Below, one piece after another: positions 1,124 to 48,569 of a stretch of 64,000 bases of DNA. Every line of letters begins with the position of its first letter. Position 1 is the first letter of the stretch. A model generated the notes under the pieces. That model was not told the origin of the DNA, made no database searches, and was given only the letters and a program-made list of their open reading frames with translations. The DNA is taken from contig JAMXFF010000026.1 of assembly GCA_025370845.1 (NCBI GenBank), positions 1 to 64,000 of the forward strand, read 5' to 3'. This stretch comes from Laspinema palackyanum D2a (lineage in GTDB: Bacteria; Cyanobacteriota; Cyanobacteriia; Cyanobacteriales; Laspinemataceae). Made by a program: the position numbers and the translations under genes.

Positions 1124-2077
1124 CTAATGGACCCCCGGGGCTAATTGAATCCCGGTATTAATGAATTTAGCAATCCAAAACTCTAAGTCCGGATTTCCCA
1201 GAGTGTTTTGAACTTGCGCGCGGATTTGTTCTGCTTTTTCCCGGGAGTCGGTGAGGGCAAATACGGTGGGTCCAGAACCGGACATCAGGGTTCCTAAAAC
1301 ATCAAATTGTTCAAAGGTTTGCCGCAGTTTTAACACTTGAGGATATTCCGGCAAGACGACTTTTTCTAAGTCATTATGTAGACATTCTACCACTTTCATC
1401 TCATCCCGAAGGGCGATCGCCTTGACAATGGGCCCGGAATGGACGCGCTTTTGTCTAGCAGCTAAATCCGTGGATTCTCGAACGTAGCTACTGCCAAATT
1501 GTTGCCGATAGGTTTGATACGCCCAAGCGGTAGACACCCCTAAACTGCGATATTTTGCCAGAATTACATACAATCCTTCTAAATCCGGCAGGGGTTCGAG
1601 TTCGTTTCCCCGTCCCGTTGCCAAGGCGGTCCCTCCGGTGATACAAAAGGGAATATCCGAACCCAGTTGACTGGCTAAATCTTGTAATTCCGGTTGGGTT
1701 AAACCGAGGTCCCAGAGCATTTCCAAACCCACTAAAACGGCGGCAGCATTGCTGGAACCCCCAGCTAATCCGGCAGCGACGGGAATCTGTTTGTCGATGA
1801 AGATATCGGCACCGCCATATTGCTCAAACGCATTGGGATAGGTGGTTTTGAGGAGTTCTGCGGCGCGGTAGGCGAGGTTGGTGCGATCGCAAGGCACCTC
1901 CGGATGTTGGCAGTGGATCCGAAAGTCCTCGGTGCCATTGGCGCGAATCTCGACGCGATCGCCTAAGTCGATGCTTTGCAGGACCATTGACAATTCGTGA
2001 TACCCATCGGGGCGATCGCCGATAATTTCCAGATATAGATTGATTTTAGCCGGTGCAATCAAAGAATAAGAGCGCAT
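1124..2077 (-). CDS. ispE: 4-diphosphocytidyl-2-C-methyl-D-erythritol kinase
   Basis: IspE phosphorylates CDP-methylerythritol with ATP in the cytosol. This is the fourth step of the MEP pathway, which supplies precursors for carotenoids, the phytol tail of chlorophyll and quinones. The 317 residues fit the family. The GHMP-kinase signature is complete: PAKINLYLEI at 9-18 with the substrate-side Lys11, the glycine-rich ATP loop PVAAGLAGGSSNAAA at 99-113, catalytic Asp141 in GSDIPF, and the C-terminal GSGPTVFAL motif near 275. It starts 8 bp after rsmA ends, so the two are very likely cotranscribed, a common bacterial arrangement. The ATG at 2077 is well placed because SYSLIAPAKINL is the usual N-terminus. 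Confidence 0.95.
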   Translation of the reverse strand: MRSYSLIAPAKINLYLEIIGDRPDGYHELSMVLQSIDLGDRVEIRANGTEDFRIHCQHPEVPCDRTNLAYRAAELLKTTYPNAFEQYGGADIFIDKQIPVAAGLAGGSSNAAAVLVGLEMLWDLGLTQPELQDLASQLGSDIPFCITGGTALATGRGNELEPLPDLEGLYVILAKYRSLGVSTAWAYQTYRQQFGSSYVRESTDLAARQKRVHSGPIVKAIALRDEMKVVECLHNDLEKVVLPEYPQVLKLRQTFEQFDVLGTLMSGSGPTVFALTDSREKAEQIRAQVQNTLGNPDLEFWIAKFINTGIQLAPGVH

Positions 2078-2085
2078 GGGGGTAT

Positions 2086-2925
2086 TTAAGGGGTGACGGA
2101 AGGTTCTAGGTTTAATAGGTTACTTAAAGCCACCCACTGCGACACGCTAAGGTCTTCGGCACGCACTTGGGGGTTAATGTTTAATTGTTCCAGAAACTGG
2201 GTCAATTGATCGCGATCAATGAGTCCTTTTAAATTATTTCGTAACATTTTGCGCTTGCTGGAAAACCCGACTTTGACTAATGTCTCTAACCACCGGGGGC
2301 GATCGGCGGGAATGGCTAAGGGGCGCGGCGACAATCGGACCACCGCAGAATCGACTTTCGGCGCGGGGTAAAAGGCTTTCGCCGGAACGGTACAGATATA
2401 TTCGCACTCGGCGACATACTGCACTCGCACAGATAATGCCCCATAAGTGCGGGATCCGGGTGCGGCATTGATCCGTTCTGCCACTTCTTTTTGAATCAGT
2501 AGGACGACGGACTGATAGGCAATTTGGGGTGGGTGGGAAATGGTGCCGAGGAGTTTTTCTAAAATGGGGCCGGTAATATTATAGGGAATATTGGCAACGA
2601 CTTTATTGGGATGGTGAAACAGTTCCGGAGTTTGGGTTAAGACGGACTCTAAATCCAGGTCCAAAAAGTCCGCGCATAAGAGTAAGAAATTCGGGATATC
2701 CCCCAATTTTTTGGCGAGTTTTTGGGACAAATTGCGGTCAATTTCTACGGCAACCACAGATTCAGCCCGGGAGAGTAACTGGCGCGTGAGGATGCCGGTC
2801 CCGGGGCCAATCTCTAGGATGCGATCGCCGGGAGATAATGCCGCCGCGTTGACAATTTCATTGAGGGCTTTATCGCTTTGCAGCCAGTGTTGAGCAAATT
2901 GTTTTCGAGGATAAGGCGAGGGCAT
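2086..2925 (-). CDS. rsmA: 16S rRNA adenine N6,N6-dimethyltransferase
   Basis: RsmA (KsgA) dimethylates the two adjacent adenines in the 3' terminal hairpin of 16S rRNA during late small-subunit assembly. With the ATG at 2925 the protein has 279 residues. I chose this start because MPSPYPRKQFAQHWL is the conserved N-terminus; the open frame runs 47 codons further upstream, but that part is unlike the family. SAM motif I, EIGPGTGILT, lies at 38-47; the acidic motif II is AVEIDR and the catalytic motif IV is NIPYNIT. The C-terminal helical domain ends in the usual 'RAEDLSVSQWVALSNLL'. It is the first gene of the rsmA-ispE pair and divergent from the rhodanese gene. Confidence 0.95.
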   Translation of the reverse strand: MPSPYPRKQFAQHWLQSDKALNEIVNAAALSPGDRILEIGPGTGILTRQLLSRAESVVAVEIDRNLSQKLAKKLGDIPNFLLLCADFLDLDLESVLTQTPELFHHPNKVVANIPYNITGPILEKLLGTISHPPQIAYQSVVLLIQKEVAERINAAPGSRTYGALSVRVQYVAECEYICTVPAKAFYPAPKVDSAVVRLSPRPLAIPADRPRWLETLVKVGFSSKRKMLRNNLKGLIDRDQLTQFLEQLNINPQVRAEDLSVSQWVALSNLLNLEPSVTP

Positions 2926-3185
2926 TGGATTCAGGGGTGGGTTCGGTGAAACGTTTAGCTTTTTTATTGTACCGGGTTTTGGACCGAAAAATTGCCCTCT
3001 TTCTCCAGGAAGATTTGCAGTTATTTCTTGAGGAGGAAATTTTGAGGATTTGCGCGGGATACCCATTTTCCTCCACCTATAAAGAAAGAGATTAAAAACG
3101 TTCTACCTTAAGGGAGAGGAAGATTAGAGTAAAAGTTACTAAAGTTTACATAGCGTGTAAAACACCATAAGGATATAGAATTATC

Positions 3186-3695
3186 ATGGCAAATTTAGCA
3201 GACAACATCAAACAAGTCAAAGAAACTCTACCGAATATTACCCCGACTCCACCGGATTTAAAACCCCAGGTGACCCCTGGAGAACTCAAGTCTCGTCTGG
3301 AATGGGGAGAACCCGGTTTAACCATTATTGATGTGCGCGATCGCGAATCATTCAACTACGAACGCATCACGGGCGCGATCTCTATGCCGATGGAAAACCT
3401 CGCCGAAACTGTTAGCTCCAGCTTAGAATTTAAGCGGGACATCTATCTATACAGTGACAGCGACGAGCACACCAAACAAGCTGCCAGTGAACTACGCAGC
3501 GGTGGCTTTATTAACGTTGCTGAAATTAAAGGGGGTTTACCCGCTTGGAAAGCGATCGGCGGTCCTACCGAAGGGATTATTTCCGTGGAAGGTCCTTCCG
3601 GTCCTAGTTCCGTTAAGAAAAGCGAAAGTAACGTGGCTGCTCGTGTCGGCAAGCAAGGCGATTTAGAAGCCAAAAAATCTCAACAACATCGCTAG
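3186..3695 (+). CDS. Rhodanese-like domain protein without the catalytic cysteine
   Basis: The 169-residue protein has one rhodanese domain at about 29-128. It contains the CH2A-type IIDVRDRESF strand at 47-56, the ITGAISMP segment, and the GG(L/I)PAW motif near 116-121. In active rhodaneses the loop after the IYVY strand begins with a cysteine that carries the persulfide. Here the loop reads YSDSDEHT at 89-96, with Ser90 in that place, and the protein contains no cysteine at all. It therefore cannot be a sulfurtransferase by the known mechanism and is more likely a binding or regulatory domain. The basic tail from about 145 looks disordered. The start ATG lies 260 bp from the divergent rsmA start. 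Confidence 0.85.
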   Translation: MANLADNIKQVKETLPNITPTPPDLKPQVTPGELKSRLEWGEPGLTIIDVRDRESFNYERITGAISMPMENLAETVSSSLEFKRDIYLYSDSDEHTKQAASELRSGGFINVAEIKGGLPAWKAIGGPTEGIISVEGPSGPSSVKKSESNVAARVGKQGDLEAKKSQQHR

Positions 3696-38726: not shown

Positions 38727-39067
38727 GCGCGTCTTCTACTCCTAAAACAGTGTCGTGATTGAGTAAGCCGCGTTCCTTCGGGACAACTCCCTACTTCCGT
38801 CCCTGCCGGGGACCTAATAATCAGGTAGTTCGCAAAGCCGGTAGAGATGAACGTATCAATAATTTCTGTATTAATTTTTACAGTTTTGCAAGTCTGTGTC
38901 AAGTATTTCAGGATACCTTTACAAAACTTGACGAGACCCGGGAGGGGGAACAAATCACCCCGGGCGGAATTAACGGCTTATCCGGTTAATTCCCCGTTGT
39001 TCATCCGCAAAAAAGACACCCTTGGCAGGTGTCTTTTTTTGACGGGAATCGAAGCGACTCAGACTAA
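38727..39067. other. Intergenic region
   Basis: 341 bp that should contain the promoter of the DUF4278 gene and, at its right end, a strong hairpin. I see no gene. Confidence 0.4.
39010..39040 (-). terminator. Strong terminator hairpin
   Basis: AAAAAAGACACC-CTTGGCA-GGTGTCTTTTTT is a 12-bp stem ending in a T-tract on both strands. It lies 28 bp after the stop of the 40-residue protein gene, so terminating that transcript is its likely job. Confidence 0.85.
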
Positions 39068-42470: not shown

Positions 42471-43007
42471 GCAGAACTCCGGTTGTTCAGAGGGGACAGA
42501 AGCGATCGCCGTTTGGGATCGGGGTTTTCCCGGATAAAGGGTACAGAAGCGATCGCTCAACATTAAGAACCCGGGGAAACAATTGACTGGTTCACGAGTC
42601 TTGCACTCCATAGAGACAAAGCCAAAAGTGCCACTCACCCAACTCCCGGAAACGGGAACTTTTGCTAGGATAAAAGCGTCTCCAGTACCTGGAATGTTAT
42701 AGCACTCATTCCAACGCCATCAGCACCCTTTCACACTGGAAGGGGCTTCGGGCAATCATCCGGAACTTAAACGCTGAGAGTGCAAATCATGCCGTTACCG
42801 GGTAAACAGTTAATGAATACCCCCGTAATTCTGATGATGTGAAAGTCTGAATTGCCAGACTCGTCTAAAAGGCGGACATCACGGTAGCGGTCGGCAAAAA
42901 AAGCACCGAAGGGTTTCGGAGAGTTCCAGGGGATTATGATTTATCCAGGAAAAAAACTCTCCACATTCTCGCCGTAAATGACGGGGTTTCCGACCCGTTT
43001 TTAATAG
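42471..43007. other. Gene-free region before the sigma factor gene
   Basis: 537 bp without a plausible gene. It must contain the sigma gene promoter. I see no clear consensus and cannot tell whether the sigma factor recognises its own promoter here. Confidence 0.4.
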
Positions 43008-43664
43008 ATGAGTTACACTCCTTCTACATCCTGGCAAACGGGTGAGGCCACTAATTCTCAAGCCTCAGTGCAACCAGATAAACTGTCAAATTACGATTTA
43101 GTCCTGCGCTGTCAGGAGGGCCTGAGCCCTGACCGTTCTGCGTTTGCTGAACTGCTACGCCGTTATCAGTCTCATGTGGATAAAATTTTGTACCACTTGG
43201 CTCCTGATTGGCAAGACCGGGCAGATTTAGCACAGGAAGTTTGGATTCGGGTTTACCGGAATGTCAAACGGTTAAACGATCCGGTTAAATTCCGGGGTTG
43301 GTTGAGCCGAATTGCCACCAATTTGTTCTACGATGAGCTCAGGAAGCGCAAGCGGGTGCGCGACCCCCTCTCTTTAGATGCCCCTCGGATGTTAGAAGAT
43401 GGGCAAATGGATTGGGAAATAGCTGCGGATGAACCCGGTCCCGAAGATGACTTGACGACCCGCGAATTTTACGACCAATTACGCGCCGCGATCGCTGATT
43501 TACCTGAAGTATTCCGCACGACTATTGTCTTGCGGGAAATTGAAGGATTAGCTTACGAAGAAATTGCTGAAATTACCGGCGTTTCTCTCGGCACTGTAAA
43601 ATCCCGAATTGCCCGCGCCCGTCAGCGTCTGCAAGTTCAACTTCAAAGTTATTTGGACAGTTAG
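43008..43664 (+). CDS. sigG: ECF RNA polymerase sigma factor (SigG/RpoE type)
   Basis: The 218-residue protein is a group-4 sigma factor. Region 2 lies at about 45-115, with DRADLAQEVWIRVYRNVKRL and the RGWLSRIATNLFYDELRKRKR core-binding and -10 parts. Region 4 lies at about 155-212, with LPEVFRTTIVLREIEGLAYEE and the helix-turn-helix IAEITGVSLGTVKSRIARAR. The next gene encodes a membrane-bound anti-sigma-like protein, as ECF factors usually have. The symbol follows the SigG position in other cyanobacteria and is an inference. Confidence 0.9.
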   Translation: MSYTPSTSWQTGEATNSQASVQPDKLSNYDLVLRCQEGLSPDRSAFAELLRRYQSHVDKILYHLAPDWQDRADLAQEVWIRVYRNVKRLNDPVKFRGWLSRIATNLFYDELRKRKRVRDPLSLDAPRMLEDGQMDWEIAADEPGPEDDLTTREFYDQLRAAIADLPEVFRTTIVLREIEGLAYEEIAEITGVSLGTVKSRIARARQRLQVQLQSYLDS

Positions 43665-43830
43665 GCGTCGGGTTGCGGTGTTTTAAACGCCTGTTTCTCA
43701 TGTAACTTAACGTTGTATTTCTCAACGTTAGACGCCCAATCTATTCAGATATGATTATTACTAAACAATCTTGCAGTTGTGATTATTATTCAGGGTGCAT
43801 TATCCAGTTTGATTTGGTGGTGGTGTTGAC

Positions 43831-45816
43831 ATGAATCCTAACTATGAATCCCATCACGCTCCCCAAAAACCAGCCCTAGGGGGTTCACGATTTTTTAACT
43901 TAACCGATCGCAATCAGCCAATGGCACTATGGAATTCCGTGACCCCAGATTCAGCCCACCTCGACGATGATCTCAGCGCCGATCAATTTGAATTACTCAG
44001 CGCTTACCTCGACGGTGAAGTAACTGACACCGAACGTCAGCAAGTTGAGGGCTGGCTAGAAAATGATGGCTCACTCCGAGACTTACATTCGAGACTCTTA
44101 ACCCTGCATCACGGATGGACTTCGCTCCCGGCACCGCCGGAGAGCCAGCCTGTAGATGCCTTGCTCAAGGGTGTTTTTAGTCGCCTTGACGAAATCGAAC
44201 AACAAGAATCTTTCACCGCCATCGTTACGGATCACACGGTTGCCGCTATTTCTGCCGATCGCGTTGAGTTGCTGAGTGCTTACCTCGATGGTGAGGTTTC
44301 TGAAACGGAACGTCAGCAAGTGGAAACTTGGCTCTCCACTAATGCCTCACTCCGAGACTTACATTCGAGACTCTTATCCCTGCATCAGGGATGGACCTCG
44401 CTCCCAGCACCGTCAGAGGTACAACCTGTCGATTCCTTGCTCAATGGCGTCTTTAGTCGCCTTGACGAAATCGAACAACAAGAAGCCGTCACGCTTTTTG
44501 TTGCCGATCGCCCGGTTGCTGCGATTCCTGTAGATCGATTTGAGTTACTCAGTGCTTACCTCGATGGTGAGGTGACTGAAACTGAACATCAGCAAGTCGA
44601 AGCTTGGCTCTCTAGTGATCCTTCATTCCGAGACTTACATTCGAGACTCTTATCCCTGCATCAGGAATTCGTCTCCCTCCCGGCACCCCCAGAAGCACAA
44701 CCTGTTGATGCCTTGCTCAGTGCAGTCTTTAGTCGGATTGACGACATCGCACAACCAGAAGCCGTCACGCCTCTGGTTGGCGATCGCGCGGTTGCTGCGA
44801 TTCCTGCAGATAGATTTGAGTTGCTCAGTGCCTATCTCGATGGTGAGACAACACAGACTGAATCGGAACAAGTTGAAAGCTGGCTCTCCAGTGATGCGGC
44901 ACTCCGTCAGGTCTATGCGGGACTCTTAACCCTGCGTCAGGAATTAGTTTCCCTCCCGGCACCGTTGGAGGCGCAACCTGTAGATGCCTTGCTCAGTGCG
45001 GTCTTTAGTCGGATTGACGACATCGCACAACCAGAAGCCGTCACGCATCGGGTGGGCGATCGCTCCGTTGCTGCGATTCCTGCGAAGCAATTTGAGTTAC
45101 TCAGTGCCTACCTCGATGGTGAGGCAACTCATGCTGAATCTCAGGTGGTGGAAAGTTTGCTCTCCAGTGATGCCACATTCAGACAGGTCCATTCGAGACT
45201 CTTAAACCTCCGTCAGGAATTAGTTTCCCTCCCGGCACCGTTGGAGGCACAACCTCTTGATGCTTTACTCACTGGGGTCTTTAGTCGCATTGATCAACTC
45301 GAACAATTGGAAGCTAAAATTCCGATGGTTTGTGAAGGAGAAAATGTGGCAATTGCTGCGGGACGCTTTGAATTGGTCAGTGCTTATATCGATGGTGAAG
45401 CAACTCAGAGCGAACGTCGTCAGGTTCAAGAGTGGCTCGATCGCGATCCCGAGGTGAAACGCCTGTATTTGAACTTGATTAAACTGCGTGAAAGTGTGCA
45501 AGTTTTGCCAGTTCCTGCGCCGGTGCAACCTGTGCAAGAAACAGTCCAGAACTTGTTCCGACGCCTCGATCGCCAGCGTCAGCGGCGGGTTTTATGGGGT
45601 GGGGTGGCGATCGCTGCCTTGATGTTAGCAGGGCTATCGAGCCTCATCTTCCGCGATCGCTCCTACAGCCCTCAAATGGCAACAGTCCCAGCAGAAACCC
45701 AAACGCCTTCCGAACGCTTGATGATTGCCTTAAATGGTTCAGTGGTCGAAATTCCGGAAGCTCCGGAAGCCACCGAACCCAAACCCATTGAATCCCGCGC
45801 TCTGTTTGTGGAATGA
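43831..45816 (+). CDS. Membrane protein with six anti-sigma-like modules
   Basis: The 661-residue protein has six repeats of exactly 92 residues, starting at 53, 145, 237, 329, 421 and 513. Each opens with (F/V)EL(L/V)SAY(L/I)DGE(V/A/T), continues with a WL..D...R..H..LL.L helix pair, and ends with LPAP..(A/S)QPVDALL..VFSRIDD(I/L). This opening matches the anti-sigma N-terminal fold, but the zinc-binding HxxxCxxC motif is absent. One membrane helix follows at about 587-607, with a 50-residue C-terminal tail beyond. It lies 167 bp after the ECF sigma gene, so binding that sigma factor is the natural inference. The frame continues beyond the stop. Confidence 0.88.
   Translation: MNPNYESHHAPQKPALGGSRFFNLTDRNQPMALWNSVTPDSAHLDDDLSADQFELLSAYLDGEVTDTERQQVEGWLENDGSLRDLHSRLLTLHHGWTSLPAPPESQPVDALLKGVFSRLDEIEQQESFTAIVTDHTVAAISADRVELLSAYLDGEVSETERQQVETWLSTNASLRDLHSRLLSLHQGWTSLPAPSEVQPVDSLLNGVFSRLDEIEQQEAVTLFVADRPVAAIPVDRFELLSAYLDGEVTETEHQQVEAWLSSDPSFRDLHSRLLSLHQEFVSLPAPPEAQPVDALLSAVFSRIDDIAQPEAVTPLVGDRAVAAIPADRFELLSAYLDGETTQTESEQVESWLSSDAALRQVYAGLLTLRQELVSLPAPLEAQPVDALLSAVFSRIDDIAQPEAVTHRVGDRSVAAIPAKQFELLSAYLDGEATHAESQVVESLLSSDATFRQVHSRLLNLRQELVSLPAPLEAQPLDALLTGVFSRIDQLEQLEAKIPMVCEGENVAIAAGRFELVSAYIDGEATQSERRQVQEWLDRDPEVKRLYLNLIKLRESVQVLPVPAPVQPVQETVQNLFRRLDRQRQRRVLWGGVAIAALMLAGLSSLIFRDRSYSPQMATVPAETQTPSERLMIALNGSVVEIPEAPEATEPKPIESRALFVE
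43987..45642 (+). repeat. Six 276-bp coding repeats
   Basis: Units begin at 43987, 44263, 44539, 44815, 45091 and 45367 with no insertion or deletion between them. The most alike units by eye are 1 with 2, and 4 with 5. The sixth differs most. The repeats imply expansion by unequal recombination from a one-module ancestor. Confidence 0.9.
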
Positions 45817-45885
45817 TGGGATGCGCTCAATCGGTTGAATGAGGTGTTTCCGCCGGACGATCAGCATCACGAATCTGAAGGTTAA
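45817..45885 (+). pseudogene. In-frame extension after the TGA of the six-module protein
   Basis: Immediately after TGA (45814-45816) the same frame stays open for 22 codons to a TAA at 45883-45885. It encodes WDALNRLNEVFPPDDQHHES and EG, with a composition like the tail before it. This looks like the original C-terminus cut off by a nonsense change, or read through. Loss of a tail is less likely to hurt function, because the six modules and helix are intact. Confidence 0.55.
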
Positions 45886-47376: not shown

Positions 47377-47922
47377 ATGAATCTTAAACAGCTATTACAA
47401 GTCGCGATCGCTGGGGTTGTAGCAATCTCTGTTCCCCTGATCAGCGCCCAAAAATCTGTAGCCCAGTCGGGAGCACCTTTGAGTTCCTTTCAGTGTCAGA
47501 TTTCTGCGGATCAACTCTTCGTCACCCTAGCGGTTCGCCAAAATGGACAGGTGTCTGACCCCATGATCGTCTGGAAAACCGAGGAATTTAGTGGTGCAGG
47601 ATACACCCCGGAACGCCGCTGTACAGAAGTCACGAACCGTCTCAATTCCTTGTTACAAGAAAATAACCAGAGTTTACAGGGACTGTACATGACCGCTGGA
47701 TTAGTTAATGGTGAGGCGGTCCTCTGTGCCGTTAGCAGCACCCGAGCCGGTTGTAATACCAGAAATGTCCTGTTTACCCTCAACCATGCCAACCGTCGCA
47801 ACCCCAGCCAAATGTTAAGAAATCTGGCAAGTGCGGGGGTTGTGGGTAGTGGGAACGCGATTCAAGAGTCCGGAGGACAACCCTACGTTGATTTAGATAT
47901 CTTAGTCAATCAACTTTTCTAA
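47377..47922 (+). CDS. COP23 domain exported protein 1
   Basis: The 181-residue protein has a signal peptide (1-30, ending SVAQS). The COP23 domain begins FQCQISADQLFVTLAVRQ. It contains PMIVWKTEEFSGAGYTPERRCTEVTNRLN, a GLYMTAGLVNGEAVLCAV strand and GCNTRNVLFTL. The four cysteines suggest two disulfides. COP23 was found as a circadian-oscillating membrane-associated protein in Cyanothece; the function is not known. The ATG has GGAGAGG 5-6 nt upstream. It is followed 113 bp later by a paralogue. Confidence 0.85.
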   Translation: MNLKQLLQVAIAGVVAISVPLISAQKSVAQSGAPLSSFQCQISADQLFVTLAVRQNGQVSDPMIVWKTEEFSGAGYTPERRCTEVTNRLNSLLQENNQSLQGLYMTAGLVNGEAVLCAVSSTRAGCNTRNVLFTLNHANRRNPSQMLRNLASAGVVGSGNAIQESGGQPYVDLDILVNQLF

Positions 47923-48035
47923 TCCTCCTATTCTTGGAACTTGTACAAAGTATTTTGCTGGAAATCGCCGAGGCTTGGCGAGCTGGAATGGCAAGATTTC
48001 AGTGGATTGGTCCAGTCAGGAAAGAGAACCAAATT

Positions 48036-48569
48036 ATGAGTCTGAAAAAAATGGGCCGATGGGTTGCAGCCCTTTTACTGGCAACCCCAGGAGGTTTACT
48101 CCTATCCCCCAGCAGTATGGCGTCATCCCCCACTTCAGTGGTGTCTTTTGAATGCCAGCCCTCGGATAACTTTTATACGATTCGAGCGGTCCGAACCGAT
48201 GGTTCTGTCTCAGAGTCGATGATTTCTTGGAAAAATCAAGACTATCGCAGTTCCGATGAATCTCTGGCAACCTGTCAGCAGGTGTCAAACCAACTGAATG
48301 CGGTGTTGCGTAATAATGGCAACAGCCTGAGTGGGTTATATCTCACCGTTGGACGAGTCAATGGGGAGATGGTCGTTTGTGCCGTGAATGGCACTGATGT
48401 CGGCTGCAATCGCCAGAATATTTTGTTTGCCTTCAATGGCAATAACCGCGCTGAACCCGGTAGATTGTTGGCGGGATTGCTCGGGACGGATAGCTTAATT
48501 AACCTAGTCGTAGTGGGGAATTTGCTGCAGGATTTTTCCCCCCTGCCTACGCTAATTTCGACCGGGTAG
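48036..48569 (+). CDS. COP23 domain exported protein 2
   Basis: The 177-residue protein has a signal peptide (1-30). Its domain FECQPSDNFYTIRAVRTDGSV parallels the upstream protein, with MISWKNQDYRSSDESLATCQ replacing the TPERRC stretch, then GLYLTVGRVNGEMVVCAV and GCNRQNILFAF. The four cysteines are kept. I chose the ATG at 48036, with AGGAAAGAG upstream; longer forms include unlikely residues. Confidence 0.82.
   Translation: MSLKKMGRWVAALLLATPGGLLLSPSSMASSPTSVVSFECQPSDNFYTIRAVRTDGSVSESMISWKNQDYRSSDESLATCQQVSNQLNAVLRNNGNSLSGLYLTVGRVNGEMVVCAVNGTDVGCNRQNILFAFNGNNRAEPGRLLAGLLGTDSLINLVVVGNLLQDFSPLPTLISTG

Follow-up and report, generated by a model that had tools for sequence, protein, structure and literature searches.

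Why should a membrane protein encoded directly behind a sigma factor gene carry six copies of a domain that its relatives usually carry once? The question is raised by a 64,000-nucleotide stretch of DNA from Laspinema palackyanum D2a (contig JAMXFF010000026.1, positions 1 to 64,000; hereafter the window), in which sigG, encoding an extracytoplasmic function (ECF) sigma factor, is followed by an expanded form of sapG, encoding its putative anti-sigma factor. The reading we favour, to which we assign a probability of roughly 0.58, is that the class I anti-sigma domain of this SapG has been tandemly multiplied to six and that the modules each hold SigG, so that the protein would serve as a polyvalent buffer. 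Sequence evidence that all modules have been kept functional is good, and the holding of several sigma factors by one membrane protein appears to be its most economical interpretation.

Architecture of the expanded SapG

An earlier note on this DNA had described six modules with an exact 92-residue (276-bp) period, each opening with ELLSAYLDGE and together followed by one membrane helix, directly after an ECF sigma gene at positions 43008-45885. This description is borne out, except that module 6 opens with ELVSAYIDGE and that the span, which begins correctly at the start of sigG, runs past the end of the reading frame at 45816. The features of the locus are given below, with scores from profile A1, a module profile of 28 rows of which six are the modules of this protein.

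43008..43664, + strand: sigG, ECF (group 4) sigma factor of 218 aa, with Sigma70_r2 and Sigma70_r4_2 matches
43831..45816, + strand: sapG (expanded), 661 aa, with six anti-sigma modules, one predicted membrane helix and a putative periplasmic tail
43960..44235, + strand: module 1 (aa 44-135), 92-aa period, zf-HC2 24.5 bits alone
44236..44511, + strand: module 2 (aa 136-227), 92-aa period, zf-HC2 27.6 bits alone
44512..44787, + strand: module 3 (aa 228-319), 92-aa period, zf-HC2 24.5 bits alone
44788..45063, + strand: module 4 (aa 320-411), 92-aa period, best RseA_N stretch 330-369, profile A1 E 6.1e-32 (the profile being built partly from module 4, among other rows)
45064..45339, + strand: module 5 (aa 412-503), 92-aa period, profile A1 E 4.6e-29
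45340..45591, + strand: module 6, membrane-proximal, grouping with one-module relatives (97/80), profile A1 E 9.6e-36
45592..45648, + strand: membrane helix (aa 588-606), predicted from hydropathy
45649..45813, + strand: 55-aa tail ending ESRALFVE, periplasmic location expected

The expanded sapG follows sigG on the same strand after a gap of 166 bp, and its modules start at aa 44, 136, 228, 320, 412 and 504, a step of exactly 92 aa (276 nt) that Tandem Repeats Finder (TRF) reports as 4.8 copies of 276 bp (score 1392). Modules 1-5 share 53-77% mutual identity and open identically, while module 6 is only 34-39% identical to the others; judged by its grouping with one-module relatives, module 6 is the orthologous counterpart of the one module found in ordinary SapG. 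Among units 1-5, protein similarity is 68-77% between neighbours and drops with distance, which is what unequal crossing-over would give. The protein has a single strong hydrophobic segment (aa 588-606, Kyte-Doolittle 1.98), flanked by six K/R in 20 residues on the N side and two on the C side, an excess from which an N-terminus-in orientation is expected. There is one Cys in the whole protein. The zinc motif HxxxCxxC is absent, as the earlier note had remarked; this absence is not unusual, since about 44% of class I anti-sigma factors are reported to lack it (available text of PMC7406223).

The intergenic gap (43665-43830) falls within a stretch of 95% mean column identity among six Laspinema genomes, and orthologous modules 1-5 are lower, with means of 85-89%.

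Membership of the SigG-SapG pair

The modules can be placed by profile comparison with anti-sigma domains, a check that the earlier note had proposed and that came out in its favour. For the whole protein, Pfam zf-HC2 reaches E 3.7e-30, in six stretches (E 1 limit), and RseA_N reaches E 3.1e-14; DUF4880 is matched in two stretches and DUF3567 in one, and other names in the Pfam list have no stretch that passes alone. NCBIfam anti-sigma models match five stretches, all under their curated cut-offs. In a search of the genome, modules 1-3 pass the zf-HC2 cut-off individually (24.5-27.6 bits), and two one-module SapG proteins score similarly against zf-HC2 (24.1 and 25.6 bits).

A homologue of the array protein was found in all 59 genomes searched, its own included; outside the genus these are mostly one-module proteins, and in most one-module genomes the best match covers approximately aa 505-655. 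Loci from named genomes were compared for the best 80 of 376 relatives, and in 79 of them the end of a SigG-like reading frame lies no more than 1.5 kb ahead of the sapG homologue; the exception, L110, begins inside the array, at the edge of its contig. One-module homologues encoded away from any sigma gene, which the earlier note had held to speak against its interpretation, were not seen among these loci. In 74 of the 80 the homologue has one module and 154-233 aa (by the script's choice of start), as against six modules and 661 aa for the protein of the window; the multi-module loci are L064, L065, L066, L084, L090 and L110. The order of sigG and sapG is the same in Laspinema and its one-module relatives. 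A compensating role for the gap between the genes was considered and rejected: gaps in one-module relatives range from 14 to 423 bp and are mostly near 80-175.

SigG and SapG of strain PCC 7002 are reported to interact in yeast and to be encoded by cotranscribed genes (available text of PMC2758279), and in Nostoc punctiforme, SigG has been described as being under SapG control (PMC12329169, in part) and as tied to envelope repair (PMC6495340, in part). Like SapG of these two organisms, the Laspinema protein is encoded directly behind sigG and has a SapG-type module ahead of a single membrane helix and short tail. Gene order, homology and the PCC 7002 report (PMC2758279) together identify the gene, on the basis of sequence, as an expanded sapG of the SigG-SapG pair. 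A single module is usual for SapG rather than defining, since counts from one to at least seven occur. The earlier note had regarded the locus as a candidate for an undescribed system; the pair itself was already known (PMC2758279), and what stands is an expanded member of it.

SigG has relatives in the Protein Data Bank (PDB) that include SigE, SigW and RpoE. No close second copy of sigG was found in the genome at E 0.001, the next match being 32% identical, and across Laspinema the protein is nearly invariant (0-3 residue changes in five comparisons).

Escherichia coli RseA and its relative MucA share with the modules the helix-1 pattern LSA-xx-DGE and the lack of a zinc motif, although RseA is only about 21-23% identical to them. 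Both consist of one cytoplasmic domain followed by one membrane helix, and their periplasmic part differs from that of SapG. The zf-HC2/class I family more broadly (ChrR, RsrA, RsiW and RskA) is linked to the modules by the profile match; lacking HxxxCxxC, the Laspinema modules fall outside the zinc-binding anti-sigma (ZAS) group. To our knowledge, these known anti-sigma factors have one domain per chain. A literature search, judged by titles, abstract openings and term counts and with subscription papers mostly outside its coverage, found no tandem or multi-domain anti-sigma factor; this negative is weak evidence of novelty because of that thin coverage and because our domain counts are confined to cyanobacteria. 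The array is a genuine and uncommon arrangement within an anti-sigma family that is already known.

Conservation at the putative sigma-binding interface

Can each module bind SigG? In RseA, S7 and D11 are reported as interface positions of helix 1, D11 contacting R178 of RpoE, and D11H abolishes RseA activity (available text of PMC7406223). In an alignment that combines RseA, the six array modules and a pair of single modules, RseA residues S7, A8, D11, G12 and E13 are invariant, which places the modules, as far as an alignment can, with class I anti-sigma domains, whose helices 1-3 bear the sigma4-contacting residues S7 and D11. Serine and aspartate occupy the S7 and D11 positions in 39 of 39 extra modules drawn from all five array lineages; these rows were selected by a pattern that admitted S or T and D, E or N, and profile counts from the same genomes agree. 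The SigG segment that matches RpoE R178 reads RARQ in 6/6 Laspinema sequences, the R178 numbering relying on a 3-residue offset for chain 1or7_A. A conserved (V/L)FxR(L/I)D segment stands, at the sequence level, where the sigma2-binding helix 4 would be expected in all six modules.

In 50 single modules, 32 columns reach a conservation of at least 90%, and these are kept at 83% in 15 Laspinema extra modules and 84% in seven Oscillatoria extra modules, as opposed to 28% and 39%, respectively, for the other 47 columns. The motif columns of the single modules are conserved partly through the choice of rows, which were found with the motif pattern.

Distribution of arrays

At an E-value threshold of 1e-8, profile A1 matched 128 of 386 genomes sampled across the phylum, two of which, the source genome and G159, hold more than one module. 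In a sample of the order it matched 376 of 388 genomes, with at most 14 first-look candidates scored per genome in either sample. Among the matches listed, arrays occur in at least 14 of the 388 order genomes and in five lineages; SapG arrays are uncommon. The five lineages are Laspinema (5-6 modules), a group around Oscillatoria PCC 10802 (at least 7) and three others with 3, 2 and 2 modules. Array carriers include Laspinema sp. D2d, Oscillatoria sp. PCC 10802 and O. princeps RMCB-10. Four genomes (G478, G541, G544 and G548) were excluded from the count because their two matches lie on separate contigs.

All eight Laspinema genomes carry the array, with six modules in G000, G002, G004, G006 and G007, five in G005, and an array interrupted by contig ends in G001 and G003. 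Outside the genus there are at least seven modules in G462, at least five over two contigs in G451, a second module that is cut off in G484, three modules in G058, and two each in G159 and G009. The count of modules in homologues that the earlier note had called for is usually one, with 2, 3, 5, 6 and at least 7 in the array lineages. The period is 92 aa in Laspinema, 83-84 in PCC 10802 and G058, and 67-68 in G009 and G159. Whole-family searches gave matches in 8/8 genomes of the PCC 10802 family, 13/14 of the G159 family and 14/14 of the Laspinema family, with no further arrays in any of the three, and a search of plasmids gave no match.

At locus L172 of Oscillatoria sp. PCC 10802, at least seven modules lie at approximately nt 1520-3600; an N run and frame changes inside this array make the count a lower bound.

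Origin of the arrays

In a tree of 130 modules (72 columns, bootstrap unsettled, with G001, G003 and G006 omitted), the extra modules of Laspinema fall into a single clade (100/99) on a branch of 0.68 and those of the PCC 10802 group into another (100/99), while the G058 pair (91/83) and the G159 pair (100/95) stand apart. The last module of Laspinema clusters with the single modules of its family and the last module of G009 (97/80). The first module of G009 falls beside a single module of Spirulina on a branch of 1.49, a placement made unsure by that very long branch. The separate clades, together with the differing periods, favour separate multiplication of the arrays, as far as such trees can indicate. 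On the other side stand the small number of columns and approximately unbiased (AU) tests, run on 72 of the 130 rows, that do not reject a shared clade of Laspinema and Oscillatoria extra modules (p 0.335) or of those from Oscillatoria and G058 (p 0.356). Homogenisation within genomes could also yield clades by lineage.

Within Laspinema, module 1 forms one clade (100/100) and the last modules another (100/100). The inner modules are near-identical within a genome (94% of nucleotides in G005, 91% in G002 and G004), a pattern indicating that they are homogenised while their copy number changes.

Selection and alternative explanations

Modules 1-5 of Laspinema are under purifying selection. Estimated by counting (mean of 10 pairs from five species, 200 codon resamples), omega is 0.35, 0.17, 0.25, 0.30 and 0.20 for modules 1 to 5, values that are individually rough because homogenised inner modules blur orthology, and 0.25 (0.20-0.30) when pooled; module 6 has 0.09 (0.04-0.18) and the C-terminus 0.08 (0.03-0.18).

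Several observations weigh against the holding of SigG by every module. Modules 1-5 evolve faster than module 6. Columns 3, 5, 19 and 46, conserved in SapG, differ in most Laspinema extra modules, as do columns 3, 9, 32 and 41 in those of Oscillatoria, and the first of the two modules of G009 is without most of helix 4, the sigma2-binding part. Only three of the six modules pass the zf-HC2 cut-off alone. Among 21 hits in a PDB search with profile A1, the sole anti-sigma factor is MucA, at E 1.1, and unrelated helical proteins, a lectin neck (5.4e-7) among them, rank above it; alignment of the modules with RseA/MucA by hhalign reaches a probability of 69% and covers helices 1-3 only. Because of their faster evolution and lost SapG-conserved letters, modules 1-5 may bind less tightly than module 6, or bind something else.

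The alternative that survives best, though we regard it as unlikely, is that only module 6 holds SigG, modules 1-5 having arisen incidentally through slippage or unequal crossing-over and being either tolerated or of use only as a spacer. The strongest constraint does fall on module 6 and the C-terminus, the inner modules are homogenised and variable in number, and some SapG-conserved letters have been lost from the extra modules. Against a mere by-product, the pooled omega of modules 1-5 is far under 1, the serine and aspartate of the sigma4 interface are retained in every one of the 39 extra modules, and the array is present in all eight Laspinema genomes, with arrays in four further lineages.

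Less probable still is a hub in which modules 1-5 hold other ECF sigma factors. The Laspinema extra modules do form a single diverged clade, and the genome offers three other matches with 24-32% identity to SigG, of which one contains an internal stop; yet modules 1-5 are so alike (53-77%) that no partner-specific types are apparent, and they retain most SapG-conserved columns. That the array is an assembly artefact is hardly credible: the arrays of G001, G003, G451 and G484 do break off at contig ends, and that of PCC 10802 contains an N run and frame changes, but intact six-module arrays with an exact 276-nt period occur in five genomes, of which G004 is assembled in three contigs.

A proposed model of SapG as a polyvalent SigG buffer

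Under the reading that every module holds SigG, each module would bind one SigG molecule, so that one membrane-anchored SapG could bind up to six, with a single membrane helix and a single periplasmic sensor tail sufficing for all of them. Envelope stress would lead to cutting of the SapG tail, upon which an intramembrane site-2 protease would act. Destruction of one chain would then free up to six SigG molecules, together or successively from module 6 backwards. The expected outcome would be a greater holding capacity per sigG-sapG transcript and release in bursts, with an equilibrium switch no steeper than that of a one-module protein. Cutting of SapG by site-2 proteases is inferred by analogy with the biology of RseA; Peptidase_M50 (site-2-type) has seven matches in the genome, some of them two per gene, and is also present in all 14 control genomes.

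We compared 60 chains of one site with 10 chains of six in a toy model of independent sites. With equal totals, free SigG comes out at 5.233 for n=1 and n=6 alike, by construction. With chain turnover, the Fano factor of sites is 6.0-6.5 for six-module chains versus 0.9-1.1 for one-module chains, and episodes of high SigG are more frequent with the former. On this outcome, an array would give each transcript and each sensor more capacity and coarse-grain release without steepening the response. The earlier note had proposed an ultrasensitive release switch; this is not supported, as the stringing together of independent sites gave no steeper response in the model.

Anti-sigma factors are usually treated as one-to-one partners. 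In an array, stoichiometry would instead be set by domain count, and the number of sensors and the holding capacity could change separately. Next to the SigG genes of related cyanobacteria, chains with module counts of 1, 2, 3, 5, 6 and at least 7 occur naturally, a series in which site number could be related to noise and threshold in sigma control. More generally, and as a tentative proposal to which we give somewhat less than even odds, SapG arrays might be polyvalent sigma sponges with burst or ordered release per proteolytic event, whose copy number (2 to at least 7) is an evolvable dial turned up independently in separate lineages.

The SapG C-terminus carries RAL(F/I)(V/I)E (window 45790-45813), which a script found in 7/7 distinct array proteins scored versus 4/122 distinct one-module ends. 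By eye, five further one-module ends were read, of which those of L193, L194, L196 and L198 have it and that of L182 does not; the end of L195 was unreadable. The association with arrays is confounded by ancestry, as related genomes share the motif. Such an end could be a protease or PDZ-type signal.

The region upstream of sigG

Two features precede sigG.

42655..42682, + strand: candidate SigG-type promoter GGAACTT-N16-GTC upstream of sigG
42984..42996, + strand: terminator-like hairpin with T-run immediately before the sigG start codon, kept in 8/8 Laspinema sequences

GGAACTT of the candidate promoter is present in 8/8 and GTC in 7/8 Laspinema sequences, and 46 of 79 loci have GGAACTT-N14-19-GTC ahead of sigG, compared to a mean of 0.42 in mononucleotide shuffles. 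This agrees with the RpoE-like start reported for sigG of PCC 6803 (available text of PMC2758279). The promoter-like site suggests that the sigG-sapG operon may be self-activated, with SapG as negative feedback. Stricter promoter patterns have no match within the window, and GGAACTT-N15-16-GTCWWA has none genome-wide, sigG's own site (which reads GTCTCC) included; a SigG regulon was for this reason not drawn up.

The Laspinema sigG leader (42655-43007) is approximately 290 nt longer, from promoter-like site to gene, than in most site-bearing loci. It has 88% mean column identity in eight genomes and a minimum free energy (MFE) z of -4.2. A conserved RNA structure is not supported here, with 2 of 103 pairs changed on both sides and an unfavourable covariation term, and around sigG and sapG Rfam gave a chance-level match only (E 0.5, below gathering).

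Other features of the window

The sole Rfam match above gathering in the window is a glutamine riboswitch (RF01739) at 38767-38855 on the - strand (45.6 bits). Downstream of sapG, two adjacent genes of the COP23 type (circadian oscillating protein) lie at 47377-48569.

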